The translations under genes and the position numbers were made by a program. Positions 21,114 through 63,275 of a DNA stretch of 64,000 nucleotides are shown here, in pieces. The number at the start of each line of letters is the position of its first letter. Position 1 is the first letter of the stretch. Under the pieces are notes generated by a model. It did no database searches, was not told the origin of the DNA, and saw nothing but the letters and a program-made list of their open reading frames with translations. Source of the stretch: Polytrichum commune (Eukaryota > Streptophyta > Polytrichopsida > Polytrichales > Polytrichaceae). The DNA lies in contig OX485808.1 of assembly GCA_950295325.1 (NCBI GenBank), positions 6,820,501-6,884,500 of the forward strand. Reading direction: 5' to 3'.

Positions 21114-21998
21114 TTAAGGATGTTGATTTTTTTGTTTAAGACTAGCTGGGGAGAGGGTTAGCAATTTGCATTGTTGTTTGGTCCTTTGGAGTGTAGTTTC
21201 TTTTTGGATGTTCCATTTTAGAGATGGTATGAGTTGGATACCTAGGTATGCGTATGGTTCATTTTGTGTGAGGGTGGGAAAGGTTTTTGTTTTGTAGGTA
21301 ATGTTTTGGGATTGTATGTAGGCTTTGAATGTGTTGGGTTTAAGTTTCGATTGGTTGGGGCACCCGGTAATGGCGCATTTGGAGAGGTTTAGGTCCATGT
21401 GGGACCATTCGGCAAATTTTTGTAACTTGAGTATTTGTGGTTGTATGTGGTTTATGTTGTCGGATATGATTGCTAGGTCATCCGCGTAGGCTGTAGTGGT
21501 GCACGTGGAGGTGGATGTACTGAAATGGTACCCCATGTCATCTTTTTCTAGCCATCTTAGTAGTGGTTCTAGGAAAATGATGAAGAGGTAGGGGCTAAGT
21601 GTATCCCCTTGGATGGTGCCTCGACTAATTGTTACTAGGGGTGTGGTACCAAATTGATTACCTGTGAATGAGGTTGTTGAGTGTGTGTATATGTTTCCGA
21701 CTAATTCAACTGCGTCTAAGGGGTAACCCATGTCTTCCATTAGGGCTAGTAATCTTGCGTGATCAATGGACCCGAAAGCGTTACGAAAGTCAATGTAGGT
21801 AAGATAAATGTCTTTGTTGGTGAGTTTGGCGTCTTCCAGGGCTGCAATTATCATTTGTAATTGTCTTGAGGTGTTTCGTTGTGGCCGGAAGCCCTCTTGA
21901 CTGAAGTGTATTATTTTGTGTTTTTCCCCGTATCTTGTGAGTAGGGCCGTTAGGGTACTAGTGTATAGTTTATATATGGTATTAGCTAGTGCTATCGG
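21114..21998 (-). pseudogene. LINE reverse transcriptase fragment
   Basis: The frame includes RPQRNTSRQLQMIIAALED, IDFRNAFGSIDHARLLALM, RGTIQGDTLSPYLFIIFLEP and TAYADDLAIISD, which are the successive RT palm motifs with the YADD catalytic pair intact. Upstream the frame is cut by a TGA at 21,999-22,001 where the family normally has the Arg of NYRPI; CGA to TGA is a typical methylated-CpG decay. Downstream it shifts frame near 21,150; the thumb continues in the next frame (KINILNTVIKPRIAYAYYAV). Confidence 0.85.
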
Positions 21999-22040
21999 TC
22001 AATAATTGGCGAGGTGAATAAGGTCGTCTTTCTTGTGGGT

Positions 22041-26813: not shown

Positions 26814-27786
26814 TGTCGCGCACCTCTCCATGAGGAGTGCCCGAAACACCGTGGGCACAAGGGGGACCCCGGAGTGACACCCGGGACTTGTGGCGCCGTT
26901 GGTGAGAGGGCCCAAGTGATCCTAGTGTGGGTGAGGGCCCCGGGCGTTGGGAACGCCTCCCACCCACAAAGACTAGGAGGCATGAGGGTGAGGCCATGAG
27001 CTATGCGTAGCTCATGGCGTGGTGATTTTAGAATGCTCAAGATCACCTCAATCGGAGGTGTGAGCTAGGAGTTATGGCCATTTGAGTGGGGCGCTGTCCC
27101 GGGACAGCGCCCTGGTACAGCAGTGCCTGGGAGTGATTCCCGGGACTGCCAAGGTTCAAACAGGCATAACGTCCTCAATACTTGCCCGAATGGGGCAAGT
27201 GAGGAGTCCATCGGCATCTACGTGAAGCGTAGATGAAGATGAAGTGGTTGGTTGTTATGATCAGACATCATACAAGGAAGTTATGATGGTCTGAAGATGC
27301 TGGGGGCTTCTAGGTCCAGGAGCTAAAGGAAAATGTCCACTTGGCCCCAACTCTTGGTAGAGAGACAAGAGGTTGGTTGACGGTGGGGTAGGGGCCCCGC
27401 ATGAAGTCCTAGAGGCTTATATGGGTGAGGTGGTGTGGCCTCACCCACCCGAGGCCGAACGGCACGGCCTCCATGGGCATTGGCCCATTGTGAGGCCATA
27501 GTTGCCTAGTATGGTTCGGGTTGTTGTAGTGTTGCTCCGGCAACGCGATGATCAACATAGGATTGGACTTCCATGGATGGAAGTCCACATTGGGGAAATG
27601 GGTTACCGATTAAGGGGTGAGTCCCGAAAGCAAAGTAGGAGGGTTGGTTCCCTCCTATGAACTATTGGTCCGGGGTAAGAGGAGCTATCCATTAGCATGG
27701 CGGAATGTGAAGGGTTAGCGACTCGTAACCTTTGCTAGAATTGAAAATTGGCAAGATTATTAAGGGACCTAGCAAGGGTTGCGACA
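26814..27786. mobile_element. Solo LTR, 973 bp, splitting the extra ORF
   Basis: The insert begins TGTCGC and ends GCGACA, giving six-base inverted ends with the TG...CA of an LTR. It is flanked by a perfect 5-bp duplication CCACA (26,809-26,813 and 27,787-27,791). No coding sequence is present inside. The two flanks are consecutive parts of one reading frame. It is therefore a solo LTR left by recombination between the two LTRs of a former full element. No second copy occurs in the window. Its orientation is not determined. Confidence 0.85.
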
Positions 27787-27791
27787 CCACA

Positions 27792-29143
27792 GCAACACAA
27801 GCACATTACAATCTGAGATTTTTAAATTTCAGAACCACCAGTTTCAGAGACTCGAGAAAAAGCTCGCTGATGCAGAGGAATTAAACAATGTGTGCATTGA
27901 GGACTCTTTTGAATTACATAAAAAGCTGTCAGAAATGCAGGAAGAGACTGACAGGTTGCAAAAGGAGATTCAGATCCTCACACGTACGAACCAGGACCAA
28001 CTCACGACAATCCAGGACTTAGAAAACACTAACTCGCAACAATTCAGAACCCAAGAAACGGAATTGGCAGCAATGCGGGCACAAATCAAAAATCTTACCG
28101 AAACATCGGAAATTCACACCCTGTATGCGGATCAACCCCCAGACCCATTTCACAGCGGACAACAACACGAAAGGATCGAGATTACCGCTTTGCAAGCCGA
28201 GAATCGCGAACTTAGGGCAGCCCTAGTGGCCAGGAAGCCGATTTCAACCACCAACTCGGACTCCCCTTTCGGCCCCCGTCTGCACCGACCCATTGATCGC
28301 GCGGAGAGGCAAATCTTGACGGAGGGAGCAGCAGAACAGCTGCTTAGTGACCTGCAACAAGAACTCCACACAATTAAACAAGAAAAGGAGGAGCTCCAGC
28401 ATCAACTTCAACAAAGGCCAATTCCAATTGGGCAGATGGGTTTACCTCAATCCTACACCCACCCTAAATCTGAGGTTTTTCGGAGGCTGTTGAATCACAC
28501 TGAGCCCTCCAGATCGATAATGCAAGGTTATCATGCGCACGGGGCACTCACTTTGCTTACCAGCAGTTTACCCATACTCCGCAAAGGAAGTTCACTCAAC
28601 CAAGACCAATTCGGCGAACTATGGGGGCAGGCTGATTCCAGGGCAAAGGATACTCTGGCTTTCATGTGGGCTTTGGGAGATCTCAAACTACCATTAGGAT
28701 GCATAGAGGTAGTAACTGGATCTCCTCCCTTTTTCATCAGGAGGTACATCTTGCGCAGTATAGCCTCAATGGGACAGCATCAGGCTAACCAAATGAGGGG
28801 ATACAACATTAATCATGCCTTACCCTCACTGCGCCCTTACACACACAGCCAAAAGATGGAAATTGCCAAATTACAACATCAGCATAAGGCAATTTTTCAG
28901 CAAGCAATTAGCGTTTTGCGAGGAGAAGATACAACCGTATGCTTCGAGGCAGCACGACGCCACCAATGGCTCCTGGAACATCTCCCAAATCACTCCACGC
29001 AGGTGACTCTTATCCAACTCAAAGATTATGTAAACCAGGCACTGGAGGAGCAGCAAATCACAGTCACCACCGGGCGTTTTGGTGCTATCAACCACGGCAC
29101 GGTACTTCGAATCGGGTTACCAGATCGACCAGGACTTCACTGA
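27792..29143 (+). pseudogene. Extra ORF of the second Ty3-type element, C-terminal half (coiled coil)
   Basis: This continues the frame interrupted at 26,813. The first 140 residues are a long coiled coil (LEKKLADAEELNNV; LHKKLSEMQEETDRLQKEIQ), followed by another helical stretch (LLSDLQQELHTIKQEKEEL) and a more globular C-terminal part (GELWGQADSRAKDTLAFMWA) ending in GLPDRPGLH. A coiled coil suggests self-assembly or binding to the element's other proteins. The function is unknown. Confidence 0.6.
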
Positions 29144-34410: not shown

Positions 34411-37400
34411 GCATCACTTTCTAATGCTAGAATATGACGATTAGATGAATGAGCCGCTCTAATAGAAGAACCTGGATGAAGCAAAACATTAATTAAAAAC
34501 ATACGAACATTGAAGTATGAATTAAAAAACATATGAACGAATAATTGGATACTGTAATATACAATACATGTAGAAGCAGTCATGTCTGCCACAATACCGC
34601 CTACAGGACTCAAACCATGAACAAATAACTTCATTAAAACTTAAGACTTCTGCTTTGCACCCCTCCATGGCTTGCCATCTCTTTGTCTACATAATTGAGT
34701 TTCCATAGTAATAGAGTTGAAGAGAACGTCATCTGTGGCTAAATCGACCTCAAGAATTGAAGGATGCATGGTGATCAGAAGTTCTTGAGGTTGCCTCGCA
34801 ATGGGAATTGAAAATGATCGAACCAATAACAAAGCCTTGAACTTCAAAGTCTGAAAGTCAATATAAAATTGAAATTAAAAAATATACAACACATAAAAAC
34901 AAATTCAAATATGAACCAATCAAAATGAAATGTCATAATTGCTACTTACATTTTTGGACGGATTCATAGGATTTGCCAAGTGCAAGGAATTAATGATAGT
35001 CCACTCATCATTGATTTTGAACTTATAGTTCTTGAAAAATCCTGCCACTTCTCTCTTCACGGCAGAACTGTCAGGATAAAACAAAATGAATGCTCCATCA
35101 TCATGAAGATAGGTAAGAACAAATGCCATCAATATGTTGAGAAAACTTGGAATGTTGGCATTCCAAGGGGGAATTTGAGATGGCGGACCCGAGACACCTA
35201 GAACCCGAAGACCATCTGGGTAATCCGCAATAATGAGGTCCACAGCAAGTTTCTTTTGCAATTGGCCATAAAAAAAAATTGTCTACCTTCACCAACCTAC
35301 AAAGATAAAATATAAATATTACAATTCATGAATAAAGACGACAATTAAAAATAAAAAATGAAATAACGTAACAAAATACGAGTGAAACTTTATAAAACTT
35401 GAATAAAGTAAAAACTGTAAAATAAAATGAACTCACCTTTGATAGAAAAGCCATAATGTCGTCATATGGTGCACGAAATGTACCTGTTTGATTCTTATCC
35501 TCGATAATCCTCACAAAAGAATCATTCAAGATTAAATCCGAAGATGTATGATTTGCAGGTAAAGGAGGCAAGATATTCATCATACCTCTAAGCTTGGGAG
35601 GCATATCCAAGGTAGGAGAAGGGGTTGTCTTCTGCCGCTTTGAAGTATGAAACGTTGCCTCTAGATTTGAAGAAGAAGGTTCAGTAACTACAAGGTTGTT
35701 GAGACTGCTTTGAATTGAAGCATCCTCATCGCTATCATGAATGAGGAGGATTGGTCTTTTAGGCTTAGACTTTTTTTTGGCATCTTGGCTGCATCCTCAT
35801 CCATTATAGAGGGAACAATTTTAGTTGTACCCTTGAGGGCGGGTTGAATGGAATCTCGAAGGGCAATATCAAAAGTGGGAGGTGATTTAAGAGGACAATC
35901 CAAATACCACCCACATTTTTCAAAATGCACAGGATCCCAAGATTTCATGATCCCCTCTGTGAACATGCATTCTTCACTTTCGATATCCAAATAATTAGCC
36001 AAAAAAACGGGAGATTTGGAAATGGCTTTCACAGGAAATAAGACATATTTGAAGTACCTATAAAACACCCTTCGCATGGCCGGATAAAAATTGAGTTGCT
36101 TGTCAATGTTATGATTTTTGTGAACTCCCTTATCCACACCGAATTCACGAAAAAATGCAGTATCCCACAATGATATGCGCATTGCCTCCACATAATCAAA
36201 AATAGTGGGCAAAGGATCCATACCATCTGAAAGGTAGTTGATGGACACATGCATATCAGCCACAGTAGCATCAAAGAGCTACTCGGTCTCAATAGCCAAC
36301 TGCCAAATACAAAATAAAGATTAGAAGAATTAAATGATTGAAAAAATATTAAAAATAAATTAAAAACATAGACAAAAAATAAATGAACCAAACATAATAG
36401 AAGGACAAAAATTATCACCTGAGCCCACCAAGTAGCTTTATGAAGCCACTTAGGAAACTCTATATCATTGAATTTTGGTTTCGGAAACTTGAGAGCCTCA
36501 CGAAGAGCAGGGGGACTGTCCCACCTCTCAAGCCACTTAATCTTCATAGATGTGTCCATTGCCGAAGTTGCTAACATCCAAAGTTTTTCTTGAATCATCT
36601 CAAGGTTCTCATCGTGAGTTTCATAATGAGACTTCACCTGCTCTAAGAACATAGAAGAATGTTTAGGATCTGCAATGGGAAGTTGTTTCTTCAATTCCGA
36701 ATGAAAAGTCAATCTCACCCTCTCAACAGCTTTGGAAACAAATTCATCTACTGCACTCGAAGTCCAATGCGCAGGATCAGGATATTTCTTATAAAATATC
36801 CTTTGAGCAGTAGCAACAGCATCTCCCAACTCTTGCTACACCAACCAAAAAACATATAAGAGTATGAATAATCACACACTACAAAAATAAGATGCAATAG
36901 AAAATATAGTTATAGAAATCGAAATAAAAAGAAAACAAAAAAAATATACAAGAAAACAAAAATCGTGAAAAACGAATACTTCAGAAAAAATAACCTGGTA
37001 TAGAAATCAATTAAGAGCCTCAACAGTCAAAGTAAACCAAGTCCTATGTTTGGATTTTTATTTGGCATCAGCGGCAGTAAGATCTTCTTTGGAAAGAAGT
37101 TTGTCAAAATATGAAAGTGGTTGTCCAGCAATGCTTTGAATGCGGAAAAACTTATGAATAAGATTGGTACAAACATGAGATTTTTGGTTCCTCCTGTCAA
37201 AACAAAACATCCAATGATAAGCCAAAGAAAAGAGATATACAATAAAAAAAAAAAACTAAAAAAAAAAAAACCAAATGAACCGAATAAATAAAAAGAGAAG
37301 AATGAAGTAGATACCAATTGACTTCATGTAAAGCTGCCAACATGGTTGCAATATCTCCTTTGACATCCAAAATAATACTTTCAATAGCATAATGCCAAAC

Positions 37401-38043
37401 CGGATCATGTGTGTGATCTCGATTAATAATGGGCAACCATGCTTGTAAACGGTGATTTCCGTCCCACACCATGAACATTTTGCCAGAAAAAACTTTGAGG
37501 TCCTCATCAGCTTGCAATATTTTTTCAAAGGCATCATTAGCCCTCACCCAATTTTCACTCCAAGATTCAATGATACTATCGGTAACATCTACTGTTTTCC
37601 CCTTATTGTTTTCCAAGGCCACATAAAAAACCCCATTGCCCTCCATATAACTACAAGCAACAAAATGTGCAGCCAGGTTCATAACGTCATTTTAAAAAAA
37701 ATGCCTTACAACAGGCAATGCAATCATTCGACATAGTGGAATTTTGATTTTGCCCTTGGTTGATACCTCAACCGTTCAAGACGGGAAGATGTGTTGACAG
37801 TTTCTTTCTTAAAAAATGCATGCAATTGCATCTTCAATTGATCTTCAGAAAGATGTACAACTTCCAAATCTAAAGCACAAAACATATCACCCACTTGAGA
37901 AACAAAAATAAATCAAAAGAAATATATACATAGGAAAGAAATCATATATGCAAACTAAAACAAAATGAAAAAACATTAAAGAAAGTGAGAGTATACATAA
38001 GAGAAAAAACCACATATTCTCCAAAAATCTAAATTTTAAATAT

Positions 38044-43896: not shown

Positions 43897-45549
43897 TCAA
43901 ATGCAAAAATATATTATTATGCAAGCAATAAGACACAAAATTCTTCCATTAGACATATAATCGAAATCACAATTATCAGATAATGCTACAGAGACTTTAG
44001 AATCTGTACTATCTGCATCTGAAGAGCCTTCATCCTCAGACTCAACAGCTTCTAAATCAACATACTCTATACCGCTTAGCATCAACTCCTTAGGTCTAAA
44101 TGTACGATATGAACCTTCCGCTAATTCATTGGCAACGTCATTTGCGTATGAAGGGAGCCGCCATGACTTTGGAGGACTTGGATAAAACGTAGGGTCACAG
44201 AAGAAAGGGTTGTGACTAGGATAGGTCATTGGTCCATATCTGCAAATTCCAAAAGTACCATGTTTAGGGCTCGATATTCGATACAATGACGCTCAAAAGT
44301 AAAAGTAATGTATGAGAAATTGTTCAACAAACTCACTTACTGAATCGAGACTTCTTCACAATTCTCGGGACCACAAGTACATCGCCCTCCGGGTCCTCAC
44401 TAGTTGCCGTTGCTCCAGAAGTGACGTCAGGAGCAACACTCGAACGAATCAAGGGTTTAAGCAAGGCATGGAAAATGGCCTCATCAGCCTCTAATGCCAC
44501 GATGTGATGCTCGACGTTGCGGGACGCATGGATGGAAGATCCTACAAAAAAAAGAATGACAATAAAATTAGTGTGATTTCTGTGGAACTAAAAACAAATA
44601 GTTAAAGATGTGATATGGAAGATTGAATTAACATACCCGTAGCAGCAGTGCAGTCTAAAACAACATCCCCAGGAGAGGTAGAACTCTGAATTAACATCTG
44701 CATTAAAAGAGTAGACTTCTCTCTTGGACCTCGCCACGGCGTGGGTCCATTCATGAGCTGATCCTCACAAGAGACGAGGTTCTGTAGAATATCATCTCTT
44801 GATACATCTACCCCGTGTCGGTCAAGAGCGGGGACAAGCTGAAATGAGAATTTGGAAGCAGGCTTGCCAGGCATGGTCCTCACCACCAATGTAATCCCGA
44901 AACGCATAGTCTGGCATGGTCCAAAATTATTGAGTTCAATATACAGAACAAAGCAGTTCAGAACTCCACATGAGCCAATTAGATTCCAAGACCTATGGAC
45001 TAAGTTATACACCAGCCATTGGAAGCAGCACTCGACAACTGAAAACAATGAACCTAAAATATGAGAAAATCATTATGTAGCCTTTGTGTCAAACAATGTT
45101 TTAAAAATGTTAAAAAATAAAGAATAAATTAAATTAGAGAATTAACTTACAGTGACAGTTTGGTTAATCGGAGATGTCAGATGAAGGCGGTTCATACCCC
45201 ACCACTCCTTCCGAACTTGAAAACCGAAACACTCACAATATCCAAGAATCATGGCTTTTGTAGTCATTCGAAAAGGGTGAAATAAAATGATGGCCCCGTC
45301 ATCATGCAAATGGTTATCTGCAAAATCAAAGATTGGCTGAAGCCACTCGTGAGTTTCTTGATTCTAGGCAGGAATCGACGTTGGTGGGTTGGAGATCCCT
45401 GGAACGGGCAAGCCCTCCGGGATATCAGCAAGTATCAAGTCCAAACAGGGCTGGACACCGGTAGTCCCCTTATAGAATCGAACTTTGCTTTTGGAATGCT
45501 GCTCAGTATATAAACACACCCATAAATTAGTACATCTACCAGAATTCAT
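43897..45549 (-). pseudogene. Copy B of the gene: methyltransferase half only
   Basis: Only the C-terminal half is present. From the right: 45,549-45,151 encodes LDLILADIPEGLPVPG, then a TAG at 45,364-45,366 where copies A and C have the Trp of PxWN, then LHDDGAIILFHP, with a GTAAGT donor at 45,150. About 45,050-44,637 encodes NGPTPWRGPREKS and GDVVLDCTAATG, with a GTATGT donor. 44,541-44,341 encodes SSIHASRNVEHHIVALEADE. 44,239-43,897 is an acidic C-terminal tail. The SAM motif reads DCTAATGSS across the splice. The ParB-like and helical exons are missing. The phase between the last two exons does not seem to match. The repeat array at 45.5-47.0 kb lies directly upstream, where copy C has its array-filled intron. 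Confidence 0.8.
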
Positions 45550-46990: not shown

Positions 46991-48855
46991 ATGGGGAAAG
47001 TTAGTATGCGAGCGGAGAGCAGAGAGCAGAGAGCGAAGAGCAGAGACCGAAGAGCGGAGAACTCAATTTGAGACATGATATGAGAGAGAAAATGCACCTA
47101 TAACCGTGGGATTGAGGGAAAATGGAAGAACTATTTTTAGAAAATGTGGAGAGTTATGGACTCTATTACCGTGGAAATAAAGTAACATTTCCCTATTCAT
47201 AAAGTTAATAGATTTTTGAAACATAGAAATATTAAAATAAAATACAAAATTAGGGCTTACATCACTATGATGTCACAATTATAATTACCGAAATGGTGTG
47301 CTATATTATATAATACGGTAAATTAAATAATATTTACTATTTGAACGTGACACGAAGGAGGTTGGCGAAAACAAATCTCCACATACGGTCCACCCTCTAT
47401 TACTGTTACACCTATAAGTGTTAACCATTTCCAAATGCTTACTTTATTCTACTCCATACATATTGCACACTATAAATGTTAAACCTGTTAATTGTTAACA
47501 AAATGGTGTTCACTTCTTTGTGAAGTTGACTCTATAAATGTTAACGACTGAAATACATTCATAAATACATGAGGGTAAACAGTATAAGATTTAGAAAGAT
47601 CTGTTGTCAAGTATCGGACTTGTTTTTGGAGGGGGCTAGACAAATGATAAATCCCATTCGCAAATGCCCACAACTGGCACATATTCTCCTACCGACGAGT
47701 CTGCAAATAAAACTAAACACCTAACCTACCCAAACAAACACAAATACAACCTTATGACCAATAAACTGAATTCTAAAAAATTCAAAACAGATATCTAAGT
47801 TACCACCTGGATTAGCAAACATTGGCAGTGTACTTGCGACCATTTATTCAACCCAGCATCTGCCTAAGATCGCAAGAAATCATTGAAAAAATGTATGAAA
47901 ACGATAATAGAAGCCAGAACCATTATCATCAAGATTGCCTTCTTCATCTGCATCACTATCACCAAGGATAGTAATTACGCCTGCCAGGTTCTCAACCTGT
48001 ATGCCTTCCTCTACCCCCAAGGCTTCCTCCACACTGACAACATCATCAATGTCTTCCTCCTCCACGTCATCAACCTCAACCTCAACCTCATCCCCGGAAA
48101 CCAAATACCAAGCCAGAACCATTATCATCAAGATTGCCTTCTTCATCTGCATCACTATCACCAAGGATAGTAATTACGCCTGCCAGGTTCTCAACCTGTA
48201 TGCCTTCCTCTATCCCCAAGGCTTCCTCCACACTGACAACATCATCAATGTCTTCCTCCTCCACGTCATCAACATCAATGTAGACCATTGTGTAATATAG
48301 GTGTGCACCTCATATCATTTTTGATAATTGGAATATTGAAAACCACACCACACTTTATAAATCCAAATACCAATCAATCAAACCCAAAATCACTCAACCA
48401 TGAGGTCGTCACTACTAGATTCCCTACTTCCAAAGATACTACCCTCATGGCCGCCCTCATTTTGTTAATTGTTAACAAAATGGTGTTCCCTTATTTGTAA
48501 AGTTGAATCTATAAATGTTAACGACTGAAGTACATTCATAATTCACACATGATTTGTAAACTTGATATTGAATAAAGTTTTGATTGGGTTTGCAATTTTG
48601 TGTATGGTATTCTCTCAGAATTACTCTTCACAATTGCTTATAGTTAGGACATGTTAAGATTTGTATATTGCTCAACATTTATAGATGGTGAACATTTGAG
48701 GGTGAACATTATAGATGGTGATCAAAAATGAAGAATGCAATGCGGGAACAACGAAAAGATGCATTCAATGACATAATTGGAATATTGAAATCCACACCAC
48801 ACTTTATAAATCCATATACCGATAAATCAAACCAACAAATCAATCAAACCCAAAA
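46991..48855. other. Patchwork between copies B and C: unit-end motifs, duplicated acidic exon-like sequence, duplicated gene end
   Basis: No intact gene is seen. The left part holds TGCGAGCGG followed by GAGAGCAGAGAGCAGAGAGC-like simple sequence and CCTATAACCGTGG at 47,097. A 199-bp tandem duplication at about 47,913-48,290 encodes, on the minus strand, an acidic stretch (VDDVEEEDIDDVVSVEEALG) twice. About 48,323-48,455 repeats the end of copy C's last exon and flanking sequence (48,775-48,930). TGTTAACAAAATGGTGTTC also occurs twice (47,493 and 48,472). Serial local duplication explains most of it. Confidence 0.5.
47913..48290 (-). repeat. Two-copy 199-bp tandem duplication encoding an acidic segment
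   Basis: The copies begin near 47,913 and 48,112 and are nearly identical. On the minus strand both encode VDDVEEEDIDDVVSVEEALG and GVITILGDSDADEEGNLDDN. The acidic composition recalls the C-terminal tails of copies A, B and C, so this may be a leftover tail exon of a lost copy. The frame is not continuous between the two copies. Confidence 0.6.
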
Positions 48856-51800
48856 TCACTCAACAATGAGGTCGTCACTACTAGATTCCCTACTTCCAAA
48901 GATACTACCCTCATGGCCGCCCTCATCTGAAGTGGAATCTAAGCTATGGCACTCATTATCCACCTCCGCGGAAAGGTCGAAGAAGTCTAAGGCACGGGGG
49001 TCATAACCCGGAGACGGAGTACTAGCTTCGGTAGGAGAAGGTTGTGCCGCTAGTACCATCGCCATATCATGGGCATAGATAGGCAATGTGAAACCCATGG
49101 TGGGAGTACCCAACACATCCGCACCAACGCCAAGTCTAAAAAAAAACACGAAAATTGTAAGAAAGAGGATGGAAAGTGTAAAAGCCGAATGGACAAGGAA
49201 AATAAGCGAAGAAGGTCATCATACTCACTTACTGCGAGAGCTCTGGCCTCGATCGCTTCAAGGCCGGCTGCCTCTTCTGCGTGCCTTGTGTAGCCTGCGT
49301 GGGAGCAACAACAATGGATGGAGCCTTCACTGCAGGCTGAACACTCTTGAGTGGCTTAAGGACACGGTTGAAGGTGTCCTCGTCCTCCTCAAGAGCAACG
49401 ACATGGCGCCCAAGCTGCCTGCATGCATGGATACAAGTCCCTGTTGCGGAGTAAGCCACATTTCAGTCAGCCCCCTTACTCAATTACCCACAAAATCAAC
49501 ATTTCATACCTCATTCAAGGCCTAACTAAGGCCACATTTCAGACAGCCCCCTTACTCAGTTAGCCACAAAATCAACACTTTGAGCCTAATTCAAGACCTA
49601 ACTAAGCCACATGTAAGTCAACCCCCTTACTCAGTTACCCACAAAATCAACCCATCAGACCTCATTCAAGGCCTAACTAAGGCCACATTTCAGACAGCCC
49701 CCTTACTCAGTTAGCCACAAAATCAACAATTTGAGCCTCATTAAAGACCTAACTAAGCCATATTCCAGTCAGCCCCTTACTCTGTTAGCCACAAAATCAA
49801 CATTTTGAACCTAATTGAAGGCCTAACTAAGGCCACATTTCAGTCAGCCCCTAACACAGATAGCCACAAAATCAACACTGTGAGCCTAATTCAAGAACCA
49901 AGTAAGGCCACATTTCAGTCAGCCCCTTACTTAGTTAGCCACAAAATCAACAATTTGAGCCTCATTAAAGACCTAACTAAGCCACATCAGAGTCAGCCCC
50001 TTACTCAGTGAGCCACAAATTCAACATTTCAGACCTCTAACATCTAAGGCCAGATTTAAGTCAACCAACTAGTTCATATAGCCAAATTTCTAAGTTTTTA
50101 GAGGTTCTCAACTAGGAATTAGGACATACCAACGCCCGCATTAACGTCCACCACAACCTGTCCAATGTCCGTAGTGGCCATTATCAAGGAGGACATGAAA
50201 GCAATATCTTTCTCACGGGGACCACGCCAAGCTTTGGAGCCGTCCATGAGAGGAGTTGCGGTATAATTCATGATCGCATCATCCATGTCGAGCTCAATGC
50301 CAAGAGCCTTGAGCTCATTGGCATCGCGAAGCCGAAATGACGAGTGCCGCGGCCGCTTATCAAGGTCGGATCCAATTGTTTTGGTGGCACGAACAAGTAG
50401 TACAACCTGGAAGAGGTTGGTGGTCTTGTCCTTATGCTTAGCTGAAGATAGGCGAAGACGGTTGACTCCCAGCCACTCCTTGAAGATCGTGAACCCAAAA
50501 GCAGCAAAGTGGTCTTCAATGCTCTCCCTAAAGTCACCATTGTCATCAGGATGAAAGAGGAGGAGAGCTCCATCGTCATGCAGGATCTCATCCGCAAAAT
50601 CAAAGAGCTCACCTAGAAAATCGCTATCCAATGCATTCCACGAAGGTACACTATAGGAAGGATGGGAGACATTAGGTACAGGCAGGTTCTCCGGGATGTC
50701 GGCAATGACAAGATCAGCCATGCCCACATCTGACCTCGCAACACCTAGAGCTCTCTTGGGATGGGAGGGTGGAAGAGAAAGAATGAAGTTTGAAATCTCA
50801 TGAAAATGACGACGTTGATGAACAATGGAGGAATTCAACATGAATTCTGAAACAACGGGAGGACGCCTAACAGATGAAAGAATGGGCGGAGGAGGCGGCC
50901 TGGATAGAGTAGGTAATTCACTTAGAGTTGCAGTGGATGCAACTGCCGCCTCAAGTGAAGCAGGGGGAGGGGGATCATCCTCCACAGGCTTGAGCTTCCT
51001 CGCGCGCTTCTTGAGTGATGACTCGTCTTGAGTCGCACGCTTCCTCCTCTTGGACTTCTGAGTGTTGGGCTCATCGAGAGTCGCAACAACCTCATCCACC
51101 TCCTGAAGCTCACTCTCTAGAAGAACAACCTCATCGCTTTGAGCAGGAGGCAGGTTCGGCTCTCCACCGGAGAGGCGAATCTTCAAGTCCGCCTCCTCAT
51201 CCGGTTGCCACGTCTTCTTACATTCCAAGTACCAGCAACACTCGCGGAGATGCGGGAGGGAAAAGTTGCGTTTTTGAGCCGGGGAAAAAACGAAGGTGGG
51301 TGAAGAGGAATCTGACCATGCGTCTAGAAATGGAGGGAGCTTCTTCAAAGCCTTCTTCTTGAAAAGCTCGTGCTTGATGTACCTTCACAACCAAGGAGTG
51401 AGGCCAATCAACAACTTATAAAAGAACTAACGTATCGAAAGATTAAGCGATTGAGACTTCCTCACACCTCACTCAGACCTCGCAAACTAGGACCTCTAAA
51501 TGATATGGCCAGAAATTTAAATACTTAGTACTTAAGTAAGCCACATTTCATTCTGCCCCGTTACTCAATAAGCCACAAAATCAACAATTTGAGCCTACCT
51601 AAAGGCCACATGAAGGCCGCATTTCAGTCAACACACTAGTTAATATAGCCAAATTTCTAAGTTTTTATAGGTTCTGAAGTTGGTCTCAGATGGTTTATCG
51701 GATCTTACAATGCCCTGTAGGCCCAACCTGAGACCTCACAAACATGCACCCCTCAACCATATGGCCAGAAATTTGAATCCCTAAGAACTAACTAATGCCT

Positions 51801-54800
51801 CATTTCAGTCTGCCCCTTACTCAGGTAGACACAAAATCAAAACTTTGAGCCTCATAGAAGACCTAACTAAGGCCACATTTCAGTCAGCCCCTTATTCAGA
51901 TAGCCACAAAATCAACACTGTGAGCCTAATTCAAGAACTAACTAAAGCAACATTAAAGTCAGCACCTTACTTAGTTAGCCACAGAATCAACACTTGGAGC
52001 ATAATTGAAGGCCTAACTAAGGCCACATTTCAGACAACCACTAACACAGATAGCCACAAAATCAACATTGTGAGCCTAATTCAAGAACCAAATAAGGCCA
52101 CATTTCAGTCAACCCACTAGTTAATATAGCCAAATTTCTAAGTTTCTAAAGGTTCTGAAGTTGGTCTCGGATGCTGTATCGGATCCGACAATGCCCTTTA
52201 GGCCTTACCTGAGACCTCACAAACATGCACCCCTCAACCATGTGGCCAGAAATTTGAATACTTAGGACCTAACTTAGCCCACATATAAGTCAACTCACTT
52301 ATGGAGTTAGCCACAAAATCAAATTTTCAGACCTCATTCAAGGCCACACTAAGCCAACTTTCTAAGTTTTTAGAGGTTCTCAACTTGGTCTTGGATGCTT
52401 TGTCGGATCCGACAATGCCCTTTAGGCCTAACCTGAGACCTCACAAACATCCACCCCTCAACCATATGGCCAAAAATTTGGATTATAAAGACCTAACTAA
52501 GGCCACATTAAAGTCAGCCCCCTTACTCAATTAGCCACAAAATCAACACTTTGAGCCTCATTAAAGACCTAACTAAGCCACATCAAAGTCAGCCCTTACT
52601 CAATGAGCCACAAAATCAACATCTCAGACCTCATTCAAGACCTAACTAAAGCCATATCTCAGTGAATAACTTACTCAGTTAGCCACAAAAGCAACAATTT
52701 GAGCCTCATTCAAGACCTAACTAAGGCCACATCTCAGTGAATAACCTCCTCATTTAGCCACAAAATCAACAATTTCAGCCTCATTCAAAACCTAACTAAG
52801 GCCACATTTCAGGCTGCCCCTTACTCAGTTAGCCACAAAATCAAAACTTTGAGCATCATTAAAGACCTAACCAAGGCCACATCAAAGTCAGCCCCTAACT
52901 CAGATAGCCAGAAAACAACACTGTGAGCCTAATTCAAGAACTAACTAAGGCAACATTTCAGTCAGCCCCTTACACAGTTAGCCACAAAATCAACAATTAG
53001 ACCGTTACTGAAGGCCACATTAAGGCCACATTTCAGTCAACCCACTAGTTCATATTGACAAATTTCGAAGTTATTAGAGGTTGTGAAGTTGGTCGCGGAT
53101 GCTTTGTCGGATCTGACAATGCCCTTTAGGCCCAACCTGAGAACTCACAAACATGCACCCCTCAACAATATGGCCAGAAATTTGGATTCCCAAGAACTAA
53201 CTACTGCCACATTTCAGGCTGCCCCTTACTCAGTTAGCCACAAAATTAAAACTTTGAGCCTCATGAAAGACATAACCAAGGTCACATAAAACTCAGTTCC
53301 TTACTCAGTTAGCCACAAAATCAATATTTTGAGCATAATTGAATGCCACATTAAGGCCACATTTCAGTCAACCAACTAGTTAATATAGCCAACTTTCTAA
53401 GTTTTTTAGAGGTTCTCAACTTGGTCTTGGATGCATTGTCGGATCCGACAATGCCCTTTAGGCCCATCCGGAGACCTCACAAACATGCACCCCTGAACAA
53501 TATGGCAAGAATTTTGGATTCCCAAGAACTAACTACTGCCACATTTGAGGCTGCCCCTTACTCAGTTAGCCACAAAATCAAAATTGCAGACCTCATTAAT
53601 GGCCACACTAAGGCTACATTTAAGTCAATCCACTAATTCATATAGCTAAATTTCCAAGTTTTTATAGGTTCTGAAGTTGGTCTCGGATGGTTTATCAGAT
53701 CCGACAATGCCCTTTAGGCCCAACCTGAGACCTCACAAACATGCACCCCTCAACCATATGGACAAAAATTTGTATACTTAGTACCCAACTAGCTCACGAC
53801 GAGCTCTAAAAGGGATAGATTAAATGGTTTTAAATAAATGAGGAGAACAAATGATGTCTCAACTAACGTATCGAAAAATTAAGCGCTTGACAATGTTGTC
53901 AGAGCCTTTGACATCCTTCCACCACGTCCCCTTTCCGTAGATATCTGAACCTGAAAAGTGACCTATGAACGCCTTATCCCAAAGGCAGATCCGCCACTTC
54001 TCCAAGTAGTCCGGCAATGAATCAACTTCGACATCTCCGTCAAGCCCACCCAATGCGTGAAGTATATCAGGTAACTCCTTGACCACTGCATCCTCAAGCT
54101 GTGGATAAATTCAAGGCCAAGATAAGAATCGGCATAGAATGAAGAGTTGATTGGTAAGTAAGGATAAGGAGGATAGACGTACCCCTGCCCAGAACGTTGC
54201 TTTATTGAGCCAAGGTTTCAAGGTGTCCTCGCTTGCAGGACTTTTGGGGAACCGGATAGCTTCACGATTGAAATTTCCACTGTTCCACCACTTTAGCCAA
54301 CGGACTTTATACTCTGGCTCCACAGCAGCTGTGGCAATGAGTTGCAATTTCTCCAATGTCATCTCAATCTTCTTAGAATGGTGGGCGCTATAATGCCTAG
54401 TAACCTGAAACAAATGTCATAAAAAAAGAAGGCGGAGTAAATTTAATCATGAATTTACGAGAAAGTGCTGAAATGAATGCGAGCAATACCGAAGGTATAA
54501 TTCCGAAGGTTGGTGAGAAGGAAATAACCTCTTCCAGAAAGTCTTTTCCAAGGGCCGGGTTTGCGATTGATTGTTGCTTGTTGAACTTGTGTCCAAGTTC
54601 CTCAGTCGTCTTCTTTATCACAGCGTCCAATACTTCACCCAACCCGTTCCCCGACTGCTCCTCTGGAGGCACTTCCTCCTTGTATATTTGGGTAGCGTCA
54701 TCTACCGCATCGGCTATCTCTTGCTGAACATATATTCTAAATTGTTAGATCACGACTAAGAGTAATGAATGCGAAGTAGAGGGTTGAGAAATTTGGAGTG

Positions 54801-57800
54801 ACTTACATTGAAAATGAAGGACACCATAAGATCCTGGGTCAGCGGGTACCAAGGGCTCTTGGGGCCTCTGCTTTTGCACGCTTGGAATTGCTCCTCGGTC
54901 AATAAGGGCTGGTAGTAGCTAAGATCATACGAACCGTATTTTTGAATGCGGTGTAGAGTGTGTACGAGGCTAGTCTTAACGTGCGCGGTCTGGTTAGCCC
55001 TGTTGCGGTAGAGACAAATGTCATTAAATGCAAATCAAAAAATGAAGGAAACAACGATATGAAAAATTATCATACTTACTTATTGATGTCGTGCATTGCG
55101 TTAAGGACGTCCCCACGCCCACCCGTTGTGTCCAAGATGACACATTCTGGGCAACCATGCTTCTCGTACCAGAGTGCATCGTCCTTGTGATCTGTTTCAA
55201 TACACTCCTTCCAGGCTAACAAGCGATGGTTACCATCATACACAAAGAACATACATCCATTGAGGCTCATCAAGTCCTTATCTTTGCGCAAAAGAGACTC
55301 AAACTTATCATTTTCTGCATTCCATAGGTCTCCCCATTCACGCCTATCTTTCGCTGAAATGAATCGATTATCTCCGGACTCATTTGTAGTAGATACATAA
55401 AAAGTGGCTGACCCAGCTCGGTATCCAAATTGAAATGCCGACATGAGCTTTGTAACGTCGCTGCGGAGGGTTGGGCGAACCAATGGCATGTGAATCAACC
55501 TGCACAGGGGGATTCTCATGGAGGACTTTTCTACCGGTAGGATTCTCATGCCCTCAACAACTGAAAAGCTATCTTTCTTTAAATTGTGGCGAATTCGATA
55601 TTCCATTGCACGAACACCCAAATCCGAATCTGCAGGTGAACCGCAGAGTGGCATCCCGGGTGTCGGCGCCTCGCTACTACCTGGTGTAAGCCCAGTATTT
55701 TGATCACATGACAAGGGAGACCCTTGCTCCCTATGCTCCTCAACACTAAGGGATGACCCAGCGCAAATACGACCCCCAACATCCACAGACTCACGATCGG
55801 CATCCATCTCAACGATCTGCGCACAACCAATTTATTGAAAAAATGAGGAGCATTCAAATGAACCCAACTAAGGCCACATTACAATCAACCCCCCAAAACC
55901 CTAAAAAATCAAACCTCATTCACGCCATAGTACAGTCAACCCCCTAGTTCAGATAGCCAGAATTATACGCTTTTAGAAGTTCTTAAAGCTGTTTCAGAGG
56001 CAATGTCGGATCTGACATAGCCTTTAAAGCCTAACCTAAGACCAAACAAACATGGACAACTACACCATATGGCCAGAAATTTGAATAGTTAGTACCTAAC
56101 TATGCCCACATTTCAGTGAGCCCACTTATAGAATTAGCCACGAACTCAACATTTTGAGCCTCACTTAGGACACACTAATGCCTCATCTCAGACGCCCCCT
56201 AGTTCATATAGCCAAATTTCTAAGTTTTAAGAGGTTCTCAAATTGGTCTTGGATGCTTTGTCGGATCCGACAATGCCCATTAGGCGTAACCCAAGACCTC
56301 ACAAAAATGCACCCATCAACTATAGGGCCAGAAATTTGGATTATAAAGACCTAACTAAGGCCACATTAAAGTCAGCCCCCTTACTCAATTAGCCACAAAA
56401 TCAACATTTCAGACCTAAGTAATTGACACACTAAGGCTACATTTAAGTCAACCCCCTAGTTCATATAGCCAACTTTCCAAGTTTTCAGAGGTTCTCAACT
56501 TGGTCTTGGATGCATTGTCGGATCCGACAATGCCCATTAGGCGTAACCTGAGACCTCACAAACAACCACCCCTCAACTATATGGCCAGAAATTTGGATTA
56601 TAAAGACCTAACTAAGGCCACATTAAAGTCAATTCACTTATGGAGTTAGCCACAAAATCAAATATTCAGACCTCATTCAAGGCCACACTAAGCCAACTTT
56701 CTAAGTTTTTAGAGGTTCTCAACTTGGTCTTGGATGCTTTGTCGAATCCGACAATGCCCTTAAGGCATAACCTGAGACCTCACAAACAACCACCCCTCAA
56801 CCATATGGCCAGAAATTTGGATTCCCAAGAACTAACTACTGCCACATTTCAGGCTGCCCCTTACTCAGTTAGCCACAAAATTAAAACTTTGAGCCTCATG
56901 AAAGACATAACCAAGGTCACATAAAACTCAGTTCCTTACTCAGTTAGCCACAAAATCAATATTTTGAGCATAATTGAATGCCACATTAAGGCCACATTTC
57001 AGTCAACCAACTAGTTCATATAGCCAACTTTCTAAGTTTTTAGAGGTTCTCAACTTGGTCTTGGATGCATTGTCGGATCCGACAATGCCCTTTAGGCCTA
57101 ACATCAGACCTCACAGACATGCACCCCTCAACCATATGGCCAAAAATTTAAATACTTAGTACATAACTAAGGCCACATTTTAGTTAGCCCCCTTAATCAG
57201 GTAACCACAAAATCAACATTTCAGACCTAAGTAATGCACACACTAAGGCTACATTTAAGTCAACCCCCTAGTTCATATAGCCAAATTTCCAAGTTTTCAG
57301 AGGTTCTCAACTTGGTCTTGGATGCTTTGTCGGATCCGACAATGCCCTTAAGGCCTAACCTGAGACCTCACAAACAACCACCCCTCAACTATATGGCCAG
57401 AAATTTGGATTATAAAGACCTAACTAAGGCCACATTAAAGTCAATTCACTTATGGAGTCAGCCACATACTCAATTTTTCAGACCTCATTCAAGGCCACAC
57501 TAAGCCAACTTTCCAAGTTTTTAGAGGTTCTCAACTTGGTCTTGGATGCATTGTCGGATCCGACAATGCCTAGTAGGCGTAACCTGAGACCTCACAAACA
57601 ACCACCCCTCAAGTATATGGCCAGAAATTTGGATTATAAAGACCTAACTAAGGCCACATTAAAGTCAATTCACTTATGGAGTTAGCCACAAAATAAAATA
57701 TTCAGACCTCATTCAAGGCCACACTAAGCCAACTTTCTAAGTTTTTAGAGGTTCTCAACTTGGTCTTGGATGCATTGTCGGATCCGACAATGCCCAGTAG

Positions 57801-60800
57801 GCGTAACCTGAGACCTCACAAACAACCACCCCTCAACTATATGGCCAGAAATTTGGATTAAAAAGACCACACTAAGGCCACATTAAAGTCAATTCACTTA
57901 TGGAGTTAGCCACAAAATCAAATATTCAGACCTCATTCAAGGCCACACTAAGCCAACTTTCCAAGTTTTTAGAGGTTCTGAACTTGGTCTTGGATGCTTT
58001 GTCGGATCCGACAATGCCCAGTAGGCGTAACCTGAGACCTCACAAACAACCACCCCTCAACTATATGGCCAGAAATTTGGATTATAAAGACCTAACTAAG
58101 GCCACATTAAAGTCAATTCACTTATGGAGTTAGCCACAAAATCAAATATTCAGACCTCATTCAAGGCCACACTAAGCCAACTTTCTAAGTTCTTAGAGGT
58201 TCTCAACTTGGTCTTGGATGCATTGTCGGATCCGACAATGCCCTTTAGGCCTAACCTCATACCTCACAGACATGCACCCCTCAACCATATGGCCAAAAAT
58301 TTAAATACTTAGTACATAACTAAGGCCACATTTTAGTTAGCCCCCTTAATCAGGTAACCACAAAATCAACATTTCAGACCTCATTAATGGCCACACTAAG
58401 GCTACATTTAAGTCAACCCCCTAGTTCATATAGCCAAATTTCCAAGTTTTTAGAGGTTCTCAACTTGGTCTTGGATGCATTGTCGGATCCGACAATGCCC
58501 ATTAGGCGTAACCTGAGACCTCACAAACAACCAACCCTCAACTATATGGCCAGAAATTTGGATTAAAAAGACCACACTAAGGCCACATTAAAGTCAATTC
58601 ACTTATGGAGTTAGCCACAAAATCAAATATTCAGACCTCATTCAAGGCCACACTAAGCCAACTTTCCAAGTTTTTAGAGGTTCTGAACTTGGTCTTGGAT
58701 GCTTTGTCGGATCCGACAATGCCCAGTAGGCGTAACCTGAGACCTCACAAACAACCACCCCTCAACTATATGGCCAGAAATTTGGATTATAAAGACCTAA
58801 CTAAGGCCACATTAAAGTCAATTCACTTATGGAGTTAGCCACAAAATCAAATATTCAGACCTCATTCAAGGCCACACTAAGCCAACTTTCTAAGTTCTTA
58901 GAGGTTCTCAACTTGGTCTTGGATGCATTGTCGGATCCGACAATGCCCTTTAGGCCTAACCTCATACCTCACAGACATGCACCCCTCAACCATATGGCCA
59001 AAAATTTAAATACTTAGTACATAACTAAGGCCACATTTTAGTTAGCCCCCTTAATCAGGTAACCACAAAATCAACATTTCAGACCTCATTAATGGCCACA
59101 CTAAGGCTACATTTAAGTCAACCCCCTAGTTCATATAGCCAAATTTCCAAGTTTTTAGAGGTTCTCAACTTGGTCTTGGATGCATTGTCGGATCCGACAA
59201 TGCCCATTAGGCGTAACCTGAGACCTCACAAACAACCAACCCTCAACTATATGGCCAGAAATTTGGATTATAAAGACCTAACTAAGGCCACATTAAAGTC
59301 AGCCCCCTTACTCAATTAGCCACAAAATCAAAATTTTAGACCTAAGTAATTGACACACTAAGGCTACATTTAAGTCAACCCCCTAGTTCATATAGCCAAA
59401 TTTCCAAGTTTTCAGAGGTTCTCAACTTGGTCTTGGATGCTTTGTCGGATCCGACAATGCCCTATAGGCCTTACCTGAGACCTCACAAACATGCACCCCT
59501 CAACCATATGGCCAGAAATTTCGATTATAAAGACCTAACTAAGGCCACATTTAAGTCAATTCACTTGTGGAGTTAGCCACAAAATGAATTTTTCAGACCT
59601 CATTCAAGGCCACACTAAGCCAACTTTCCAAGTTTTTAGAGGTTCTCAACTTGGTCTTGGATGCATTGTCGGATCCGACAATGCCCATTAGGCGTAACCT
59701 GAGACCTCACAAACAACCACCCCTCAACTATATGGCCAGAAATTTGGATTATAAAGACCTAACTAAGGCCACATTAAAGTCAGCCCCCTTACTCAATTAG
59801 CCACAAAATCAAAATTTTAGACCTAAGTAATTGACACACTAAGGCTACATTTAAGTCAACCCCCTAGTTCATATAGCCAAATTTCCAAGTTTTCAGAGGT
59901 TCTCAACTTGGTCTTGGATGCTTTGTCGGATCCGACAATGCCCTATAGGCCTTACCTGAGACCTCACAAACATGCACCCCTCAACCATATGGCCAAAAAT
60001 TTCGATTATAAAGACCTAACTAAGGCCACATTTAAGTCAATTCACTTGTGGAGTTAGCCACAAAATGAATTTTCCAGACCTCATTCAAGGCCACACTAAG
60101 CCAACTTTCCAAGTTTTTAGAGGTTCTCAACTTGGTCTTGGATGCTTTGTCGGATCCGACAATGCCCTTAATGCCTAACCTGAGACCTCACAAACAACCA
60201 CCCCTCAACCAGTTGGCCAGAAATTTGAATCCCTACGAACTAAGCAAGGCCAAATCAAAGTCAGCCCCATGCTCAGTGAGCCAAAAATTCAACAATTTCA
60301 GACCTCATTAATGGCCATACTAAAGCTACATTAGAGGTTCTTAACTTGGTCTTAGAGGCATTGTCGGATCCGACAATGCCCATTAGGCGTAACCTGAGAC
60401 CTCACAAACATGCAGCCCTCAACAATATGGCCAGATATTTGGATTATAAAGACCTAACTAAGGCCACATTAAACTCAGCCCTTACTCAGTTAGCCACAAA
60501 ATCAACATTCAGACCTCATTAATGGCCACACTAAGGCTACATTTAAGTCAACCCCTTAGTTCATATAGCCAAATCTTTAACTTTTTAGAGGTTCTCAATT
60601 TGGTTTTGGATGCTTTGTCGGATCCGACAATGCCCTTTAGGCCATACCTGAGACCTCACAAACATGCACCCTCAACCATATGGCTAGAAATTTGTATCTC
60701 TAAGAACTAATTAAAGGCCATATTAAAGTCAGTCCCTTACACAGTTACCCACAAAATCAACATTTCATACCTCATTAATGGCCACATTAAGGCTACATTA

Positions 60801-63275
60801 GAGGTTCTGAGGTTGTTATCGGATCCTTTGTCGGATCCGACAATGCCCTTAAGGCCTTACCTGAGACCTCACAAACAAGCACCCTCAACCATATGGCCAG
60901 AAATTTGAATACTTAGTACCTAACCAAGCCCACATTTAAGTCAACTCGCTTATGGAGTTAGCCACAAAATCAATTTTTCGGACCTCATTCAAGGCCACAC
61001 TAAGCTAAATTTCTAAGTATTTAGAGGTTCTCAACTTGGTCTTGGTTGCTTTGTCGGATCCGACAATGCCCTATAGGCTTTACCTGAGACCTCACAAACA
61101 TGCACCCCTCAACCATATGGCCAGAAATTTGGATTATAAAGACCTAACTAAGGCCACATTTAAGTCAATTCACTTATGGAGTTAGCCACAAAATCAAATT
61201 TTCAGACCTCGTTCAAGGCCACAGTAAGCCAAATTTCCAAGTTTTCAGAGGTTCTCAACTTGGTCTTGGATGCTTTGTCGGATCCGACAATGCCCTGAAG
61301 GCCTAACCTGAGACCTCACAAACAACCACCCCTCAACCATTTGGCCAGAAATCTGAATCCCTAGGAACTAACTAAGGCCACATTTCAGTCTTGCCCCTTA
61401 CTCAGTTAGCATGAAAATGAACACTTTGAGCCTCATTAAAGACCTAACTAAGCCACATCTAAGTCAACCCCTTACTCAGTTATCACAAAATCAACATCTC
61501 CCACCTCATTCAATAACTAACTAAGGCCACATCTAAGTCAACCCACTATTTCATATAGCCAAATTTCTAAGTATTTAGAGGTTCTCAACTAGGTCCTGGA
61601 TGCTTTGTCGGATCCGACAATGCCCTCTAGGCCTAACCTGTGACCTCCCAAACATGCACCCCTCAACCACATGGCCAGAAATTTGAACCCCTAAGTACGA
61701 ACTAATGGCTCATTTCAGTCAGCCCCCTTCCTCAATTAGCCACAAAATCAACACTTTGAGCCTCATTAAAGACCTAACTAAGCCACATCAAAGTCAGCCC
61801 CTTACTCAGTGAGCCACAAAATCAACATCTCAGACCTCATTCAAGACCTAACTAAAGCCATATCTCAGTGAATAACTTACTCAGTTAGCCACAAAAGCAA
61901 CAATTTGAGCCTCATTCAAGACCTAACTAAGGCCACATCTCAGTGAATAACCTCCTCATTTAGCCACAAAATCAACACTTTCAGCCTCATTCAAAACCTA
62001 ACTAAGGCCACATCAATGTCAGCCCCTACTCAGTTACCCACATTCCAAGTATTCTGAGGTTCTCAGGCTGGTCTTGGATGCTTTGTCGGATCCCACAATG
62101 CCCTCTAGGCCTAACCTGTGACCTCCCAAACAAGCACCCCTCAACCACATGGCCAGAAATTTGAATCCCTAAGTACTAACTAAGGCCACATTTCAGTCTT
62201 GCCCCTTACTCAGTTAGCATGAAAATGAACACTTTGAGCCTCATTAAAGACCTAACTAAGCCACATCTAAGTCAACCCCTTACTCAGTTATCACAAAATC
62301 AACATCTCCCACCTCATTCAATAACTAACTAAGGCCACATCTAAGTCAACCCACTATTTCATATAGCCAAATTTCTAAGTATTTAGAGGTTCTCAACTAG
62401 GTCCTGGATGCTTTGTCGGATCCGACAATGCCCTCTAGGCCTAACCTGTGACCTCCCAAACATGCACCCCTCACTTCATATGATGACTACATAATTCATA
62501 TAACCACAAAATAAACCTTTTTGACCTCACCTCAGACCTCTCCACGGGGCGACCACTGCCCTCCCCTCGAATCCCTCCCCCTCTCCAAATTGAGGCTGCA
62601 ACCTTGAACTTTGTGTTCACTCCTCGTATTTGGAGGAATACCCTATTTCTGAGGTTTGTTGTAATGCGGGGAACGATGGTATGTTACTGTTGCGTCAGTC
62701 TTGTTCCCTTCCTCTTCCGAGTCATTGTGACCACCCTTTGCATTGTGAGTGCTTCCACAGGCCCACACTTGCTGCCTTGTTTACCTCACGATTACTACCC
62801 CTAATTTCTAGTGCATATATATTAACAATGTCTAGTGCCAAACTTGCAATGATGCGACAAAGCATCGAAAATATCATTACTCGAATGCATAGGATAGTTT
62901 CCTCTCATGCCATAATGTTTCCTTTCAAGCCAACTATACACGGGACTCATAAAATTTAAATAAATTCAAACTAAATGTAATGTAAGCAGAGCATACCTTA
63001 ATTTCTTCATTGTCCAAGGAGGTGTCTTCCTCTCCTAATGAGAATAACCTAATGGGAGCAACCTCCGCCTTTTCAAATGACTCAACATTTCGTTTTGAAC
63101 GACTGTGAGTAGCCTTTGTTGAATTATCCCCTTTTCTTCCCATGGTTGACCTCAATTTGTACGGGGTCACTACCTTATCTATAGTAGCGAACCTCTCCTT
63201 TCTCTCAATGCGCCTCTGTTTCTCATTAGTCTTCCTCTCTTCTCGATCTGCTCTCGCTCTCGACCGAGTGTTCAT
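48856..63275 (-). CDS. Copy C: intact nine-exon gene for a ParB-like/DNA-methyltransferase fusion protein
   Basis: Exons (minus strand): 63,275-62,997; 55,816-55,080; 54,999-54,807; 54,723-54,529; 54,404-54,183; 54,098-53,868; 51,372-50,130; 49,440-49,233; 49,135-48,856. Every junction is GT-AG, phases agree, and there is no internal stop, giving about 1,195 residues. Residues 1-93 are basic. About 195-295 fit a ParB/Srx-type domain: MRIPLCRLIHMPLVRP, then GCMFFVYDGNHRLLAW (DGNHR near 287). 340-620 is helical with no known match. A bipartite basic signal (KSKRRKR...KKRARK) lies near 725-745. The methyltransferase has a motif IV-like ADIPE near 843, LHDDGALLLF near 883, WRGPREK near 1001, motif I VDVNAGVGT near 1028 (spanning the exon 7/8 splice) and RHVVALEED near 1046, the order of the beta class. 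The tail is acidic. By family it should bind DNA and methylate an amino group of A or C in the nucleus; DPPY itself is absent, so activity is uncertain. Confidence 0.85.
49441..50100. repeat. Tandem repeats filling intron 7 of copy C
   Basis: The repeats are units of about 80 bp built on AAGGCCACATTTCAGTCAGC and CCCTTACTCAGTTAGCCACA. They belong to the same family as the arrays in introns 6 and 1 but carry no palindrome here. Confidence 0.9.
51480..53820. repeat. Tandem array in intron 6 of copy C with about six palindromes
   Basis: The array has the same unit family as intron 1. Palindromes of the TTGTCGGATCCGACAA type are centred near 51,703 (degenerate), 52,183, 52,407, 53,111, 53,443 (perfect over 22 bp, 53,433-53,454) and 53,700. 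Each is followed by a GCCCTTTAGGC-like phrase. A stretch of about 250 bp around 52,530-52,800 is nearly identical to 61,730-61,995 in intron 1. No gene is present. Confidence 0.95.
55850..62470. repeat. Large tandem array in intron 1 of copy C with about 26 palindromes
   Basis: Units of mostly 220-260 bp each carry one palindrome, CATTGTCGGATCCGACAATG or CTTTGTCGGATCCGACAATG, framed by GAGGTTCTCAACTTGGTCTT on the left and AACCTGAGACCTCACAAACA on the right, then stretches such as AAGGCCACATTAAAGTCA. There is higher-order structure: about 57.85-58.55 kb is repeated at 58.55-59.25 kb with a 705-bp offset (three units), and about 59.30-59.55 kb recurs some 483 bp further on. Many short frames (LSQLSKFLEVLNLVLDALSD) are translations of the unit and not genes. 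Confidence 0.95.
62471..62996 (-). other. Unique 5' part of intron 1 of copy C
   Basis: This is the end of the array and about 500 bases of non-repetitive intron that follow exon 1 (donor GTATGC at 62,996-62,991). Small plus-strand frames here have no support. Confidence 0.6.

Follow-up and report, generated by a model that had tools for sequence, protein, structure and literature searches.

In a 64,000-nucleotide window of the genome of the moss Polytrichum commune (contig OX485808.1, positions 6,820,501 to 6,884,500; "the window" means this whole stretch), the minus strand between 48856 and 63275 carries a gene, here called gene A, whose product joins a domain with the predicted fold of ParB and sulfiredoxin (Srx) to a domain homologous to beta-class DNA methyltransferases, in which the motif IV sequence DPPY is replaced by DIPE. 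Gene A belongs to a large multi-copy gene family. We think that it encodes a multidomain protein derived from a ParB-methyltransferase, probably nuclear and nucleotide-binding, that has lost standard catalysis; taken jointly, we give these points about an even chance. Nine exons joined across eight GT-AG introns yield 1,195 residues with a single terminal stop, in a model that is a reading of the genomic sequence checked against relatives. A first-pass annotation had proposed such a gene of about this length; its open frame could be reproduced, and the motifs quoted in it are all found in the protein: DGNHR at residue 287, DIPE at 844, WRGPREK at 1001, DVNAGVG (the VDVNAGVGT region) at 1028 and ALEED at 1049, with a basic patch from 725.

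In beta-class enzymes motif IV reads (D/N/S)PP(Y/F/W), and its aromatic residue stacks the flipped base, whereas gene A has DIPE, within DIPENLPVP. With a limit of E 0.1, 52 metagenome proteins match the methyltransferase part, and the 43 that cover motif IV have D in 41 cases, I in 38, P in 37 and E in 38 (otherwise three K, one D and one N); the fourth position is aromatic in none of them. Twelve of the 43 are less than 60% identical to gene A outside the motif. Six of these divergent relatives, with identities of 29–55% outside it, keep DIPENLPVP exactly (P0035, P0043, P0046, P0047, P0049 and P0050) and P0044 has DVPENLPVP; the motif is altered in the other five (P0036, P0039, P0040, P0051 and P0052), among which P0039, P0051 and P0052 resemble, by eye, frame-shifted close relatives. 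As for the decayed copies B and C in the window, motif IV is DYPD in the former and DIPE in the latter. The changed forms are probably those of decaying copies. Since a dead enzyme that decays neutrally would not preserve one new motif over such distances, DIPE(NLPVP) would be a selected replacement of DPPY, and its presence at that place argues against a working methylase of adenine N6 or cytosine N4. On this motif, gene A does not appear to belong among the working N6/N4 methylases; the first-pass reading as such an enzyme stands as regards homology and motif order and falls short at motif IV.

Several independent scores give the homology good support, which the structure lacks. Pfam N6_N4_Mtase is matched at 27.5 bits against a cut-off of 26.7, over residues 871–1054 in the numbering of an earlier, 1,193-residue version of the model. 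The best relatives of solved structure are DpnA (E 4.7e-4) and CcrM (E 0.0021), and PHROG methyltransferases reach E 4.2e-8 when exon 8 is joined; neither exon 7 alone nor P0043 gave a PHROG match. The profile aligns with CcrM across the whole domain, where DIPENL falls opposite DPPYNL and DVNAGVG opposite DPFFGVG; the E value, 0.019, is weak, and the unrelated GAPDH appears in this search from E 0.11 on. Alignment with hhalign to seven phage ParB-methyltransferases (one of them cut) covers 181 columns at E 0.0012, with a probability of only 20%. The permuted order IV-X-I-II is found in gene A, and the domain, earlier placed at 830–1070, is supported at about 835–1070. Motif I with its G-x-G is kept as DVNAGVG, a form shared by 11 of the 52 relatives, with DVNVGVG in 4, variation in others and 27 that do not cover it; because this motif is kept, the domain probably binds S-adenosylmethionine (SAM).

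Could gene A nevertheless encode an active enzyme, a eukaryotic beta-class methyltransferase of DNA (or RNA) that works with DIPE as its motif IV and is regulated by the ParB domain? The motif order, the Pfam score above threshold, the retained G-x-G of motif I and acidic residues of motif II, and the motif IV Asp kept in 41 of 43 relatives would all agree with this. However, the aromatic residue is missing in every relative that covers the position, and the phage ParB-methyltransferases have DPPY in six cases out of seven and DAPY in the remaining one, so that we consider an active enzyme unlikely.

For residues of about 190–338, in exon 2 (195–300 in the first-pass annotation), the predicted structure has the ParB/Srx fold, and in the fold comparison with the PDB its best matches are the canonical ParB/Noc/KorB CTPases; on the strength of this model, gene A can be placed in the ParB/sulfiredoxin (ParB-CTPase) fold superfamily. 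The DGNHR loop lies between strand 129–133 and helix 135–148 of the model, and was equated with the ParB phosphate loop by this position, not by structural alignment. At E 0.1 or better, 330 metagenome proteins match the ParB part; an alignment of 122 rows, which includes 120 of them, has Gly288 in all 122 and Arg291 in 118 of 121 aligned rows, with Asn at the position of the sulfiredoxin catalytic Cys in 120 of 122. Loops of the DGNHR type hold nucleotide phosphates in this superfamily, and because the loop is kept, the domain probably binds cytidine, adenosine or guanosine triphosphate (CTP, ATP or GTP) through it. According to the available part of a 2025 survey (PMC12704722), ParB folds bind these three nucleotides, and 17 of the 28 ParB-fold proteins tested bound none of them.

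Pfam ParB_N (PF02195) recognises none of 30 family members tested, which is a limit of the library and not part of the fold. The first-pass annotation had suggested profile-profile searches and structure prediction as checks; these returned the ParB fold and the methylase homology, whereas comparison of the ParB part with phage ParB gave no match, and the predicted structure of exon 7 alone was poor (predicted local distance difference test score 44) and unusable for fold comparison. In canonical ParB the CTPase domain is followed by a helix-turn-helix for parS; in the full gene A protein Pfam found none, the middle region lying outside the structure prediction.

A tblastn search of the window with the gene A protein revealed three further copies, B, C and D, on the same strand, in which the frame is broken or interrupted by stops. 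Outside the gene the best match reaches E 8e-55, against 0.99 for the reversed window and 0.71 for the best of ten shuffled queries, so the similarity is far beyond chance. Exons 2–7 are matched in copy B, including counterparts of residues 340–620 (proposed as helical in the first-pass annotation), and exon 8 in copy C, which has a stop where gene A has a Trp; exon 8- and 9-like pieces can be followed by eye below copy B down to about 33.4 kb. The exon 4/5 intron of gene A (54183–54723) is absent from copy B (36032–36835, minus strand), where the counterparts are contiguous; judged from the two sequences, it was gained or lost between the copies. Single linkage at 60% identity divides the 122 ParB rows into 13 clusters, the largest with 61 rows (including B) and 36 (including A), and pairwise identity is 58–95% among 33 rows around gene A. 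The first-pass annotation was right in describing a spliced eukaryotic fusion gene, but missed the large family and the decayed copies beside it. A full-length protein search gave none at E 0.01 or better among the 8,000 candidates sharing most words. GTDB genomes gave three pattern matches, and the candidate L001, from an Acidobacteriaceae metagenome-assembled genome, was rejected, because an open frame of 959 residues runs opposite its match of 30 residues.

Exon edges were checked against the 34 closest metagenome proteins (P0053–P0086). The match runs to residue 339, the exon-2 donor, in 33 of them, mostly because the frame hits a stop created by that donor; 18 reach upstream of the match, which starts at residues 92–96 (the acceptor) in 11 and at 99–158 in the other 7. 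Some parts of the model are weaker than others. Exon 1 is the least supported: it has no tblastn match outside itself in the window, sits 7.2 kb upstream across a satellite array, and has an open frame and a GT donor as its sole support. Exon 9 is a weak point too, since it was compared with the other copies by eye only. The weakest junction is that of exons 6 and 7, where joining the exon-6 donor to the acceptor before RYIKHE breaks the frame; with an AAG/CAC acceptor ten bases further on the frame is kept and two residues are lost, and the relative P0021 likewise has R preceding YIKHEF.

This junction enters into another view, in which the family is real but gene A has recently become a pseudogene, its frame disturbed at exon 6/7 and no protein being made. 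Three decayed neighbours and an intron 1 of about 7.2 kb, largely satellite, would fit such a fate, and the full set of conserved ParB columns in gene A (37 of 37) is compatible with it, given that the decayed copy B keeps 30 of 31. On the other hand, the nine exons are open over 1,195 codons while copies B, C and D are broken, and gene A is up to 96% identical to relatives. We find a pseudogene just as improbable as an active methylase, and keep to a functional, catalytically altered protein.

Least probable of all, and in our opinion a rather remote prospect, is that the protein is part of a mobile element that spread it, be this a large transposon or the endogenised region of a giant virus: the many copies, their pairwise identities, the repeat-rich DNA and the enrichment of ParB-methyltransferase fusions in prophages (available part of PMC12704722) would suit this, but all 13 inverted-repeat pairs of at least 25 bp in 43–64 kb (exact seed of 14) involve a satellite palindrome, two IMG/VR scans, one with the ParB profile (173 pattern matches) and one with the methyltransferase profile (22), confirmed no relative, and the copies lie on one strand, as expected from tandem or segmental duplication.

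The surroundings of gene A are summarized in Table 1. The satellite palindrome, TTGTCGGATCCGACAA, occurs in 32 units at 49–63 kb when up to 4 mismatches are allowed, and 25 of these match it exactly; units in introns are found at 51695–62430. We do not claim it as a parS-like site, its flanks being almost equally conserved, and the satellite core was not found in IMG/VR. The 3' end of gene A and its downstream flank are duplicated (48324–48460 and 48773–48926, 88% identity), and a tandem repeat of about 199 bp at 47899–48278, if read on the minus strand, would give an acidic stretch of protein. The long terminal repeat (LTR) retrotransposon has an open frame of 2,086 codons (5160–11417) with gag, reverse transcriptase, RNase H and integrase matches; its insertion is apparently very recent, and its interruption of copy D indicates that the DNA here is eukaryotic and repeat-rich. 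An RNase H-bearing open reading frame (ORF) at 17613–20501 (minus) adjoins a reverse-transcriptase ORF at 21117–21998, and its residues 224–311 match Pfam PCIF1_WW at E 1.2e-6 and 28.7 bits, below the cut-off of 31.1; the region is possibly a long interspersed nuclear element with a PCIF1-like domain. On the plus strand, a second integrase-bearing frame lies at 22022–23710, and two long ORFs at 25349–26830 (494 codons) and 27773–29140 (456 codons) have no Pfam match above cut-off.

Table 1. Exons of gene A, its decayed copies and the repeats of the window
Feature	Position	Strand	Content	Basis
Exon 1	62997–63275	−	Residues 1–93; basic N-terminus, ATG start	Open frame and GT donor
Exon 2	55080–55816	−	Residues 94–339; predicted ParB/Srx-fold domain with DGNHRLLAW	Metagenome relatives, exon edges, predicted structure, PDB fold matches
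Exon 3	54807–54999	−	Middle region	tblastn match in copy B
Exon 4	54529–54723	−	Middle region	tblastn match in copy B, likewise beginning QE after TAG
Exon 5	54183–54404	−	Middle region	Matches in copies B and D
Exon 6	53868–54098	−	Middle region; junction to exon 7 uncertain	Matches in copies B and D
Exon 7	50130–51372	−	End of middle region, basic nuclear-signal-like patch, methyltransferase motif IV (DIPE) to start of motif I	52 metagenome relatives, Pfam, CcrM alignment
Exon 8	49233–49440	−	Remainder of motif I and motif II (TCIHACRQLGRHVVALEED)	tblastn match in copy C; within Pfam, PHROG and PDB matches
Exon 9	48856–49135	−	Acidic C-terminus and stop	Frame open to stop; similar C-terminal segments by eye in copies B and C
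Copy B	34563–37757	−	Decayed; stops in ParB and following exons	tblastn, six-frame reading
Copy C	43900–45441	−	Decayed; methyltransferase part and C-terminus	tblastn to 44345, rest by eye in ORF list
Copy D	1697–15498	−	Decayed; matches at 15.5–13.7 kb and 1.9–1.7 kb, split by LTR retrotransposon	tblastn, LTR pair, target-site duplication
LTR retrotransposon, Ty3/gypsy-type	2044–13709		Inserted in copy D exon-5 counterpart	2,228-bp LTRs with one mismatch; 5-bp target-site duplication AGAAG
Satellite arrays	49452–62420	+	75, 224 and 257 bp units in introns 1, 6 and 7	Tandem repeat finder, unit alignment

We think that gene A may go back, by horizontal transfer, to a phage- or bacterium-type fusion of ParB and a DNA methyltransferase. 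Its methyltransferase domain, in which the motifs keep their beta-class order and motif I is of the SAM type, would have lost the standard methylation of adenine or cytosine and, perhaps SAM-bound, could serve nucleic-acid recognition or another reaction. METTL14, which lost catalysis yet kept a role, offers an analogy. Because the SAM motif is kept but the aromatic residue of motif IV is gone, we regard a factor that binds nucleic acid and is regulated by nucleotides as more likely than a standard methylase. A more far-reaching proposal, which we put forward only tentatively and trust less than the one above, is that of a large, diversifying eukaryotic family derived from phage- or bacterium-type fusions, in which a ParB nucleoside-triphosphate switch would control a methyltransferase-fold domain with DIPENLPVP as a conserved active-site or reader signature, that is, a CTP/ATP- and SAM-dependent nucleic-acid factor without a described counterpart. 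If this holds, a phage fusion was adopted by a eukaryote, in which it grew longer, multiplied and exchanged its catalytic motif for a new one that is under constraint. Nature would then have provided an example of a DNA methyltransferase that became something different, and the eukaryotic ParB folds, dominated by sulfiredoxin, would have a further member. It would also become testable whether a ParB nucleotide switch operates in a nucleus.

In the literature searched (closed journals and preprints being outside its scope) we found no report of ParB domains in mosses, ferns, hornworts or lycophytes, nor of such a eukaryotic ParB-methyltransferase family; the available parts of PMC9477723 and PMC5512222 do not mention one, and in those of the latter plant, moss, fern or streptophyt- do not occur. 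In the available part of PMC12704722, sulfiredoxin is the commonest eukaryotic representative of the ParB-CTPase fold, N6/N4 methyltransferase fusions are among those more frequent in phages, and the domain analysis relies on PF02195, which the gene A family fails.

Phage fusions such as that of Streptococcus phage Javan575 (QBX21472.1) share with gene A an N-terminal ParB and a C-terminal beta-class methyltransferase, an arrangement that the first-pass annotation had rightly called familiar in phages. Javan575 and gene A are 34% identical over residues 2–82 of the methyltransferase query, at only E 0.03. The phage protein has ParB_N at 8–95 (23.8 bits, below the cut-off of 26.3), N6_N4_Mtase and DPPY at 200, so that about 105 residues separate the ParB match from DPPY, against about 500 in gene A (338 to 844); motif IV of the six remaining phage proteins is located near residues 192–225. 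The Javan575 fusion (phage locus 922–3033) also has an intein-like insert in its methyltransferase, with Intein_splicing and Hint_2 matches both below the Pfam cut-offs. Unlike the phage fusions, gene A has introns, forms a gene family and has a ParB part that is not recognised by sequence.

With the canonical ParB/Noc/KorB CTPases gene A shares the predicted fold and the Gly and Arg of the phosphate loop, but their loop is GERR instead of DGNHR, and gene A is fused to a methyltransferase. Sulfiredoxin carries its catalytic Cys in a GCHR loop; gene A differs from it and from the free serine kinases (SerK, SbnI) in lacking that Cys and in holding the domain within a 1,195-residue protein. The beta-class adenine methyltransferases CcrM and DpnA, its best solved-structure matches, have the same motif order, IV followed by X, I and II, whereas from CcrM to gene A DPPY becomes DIPE, HPTQK becomes WRGPREK and DPFFGVG becomes DVNAGVG.
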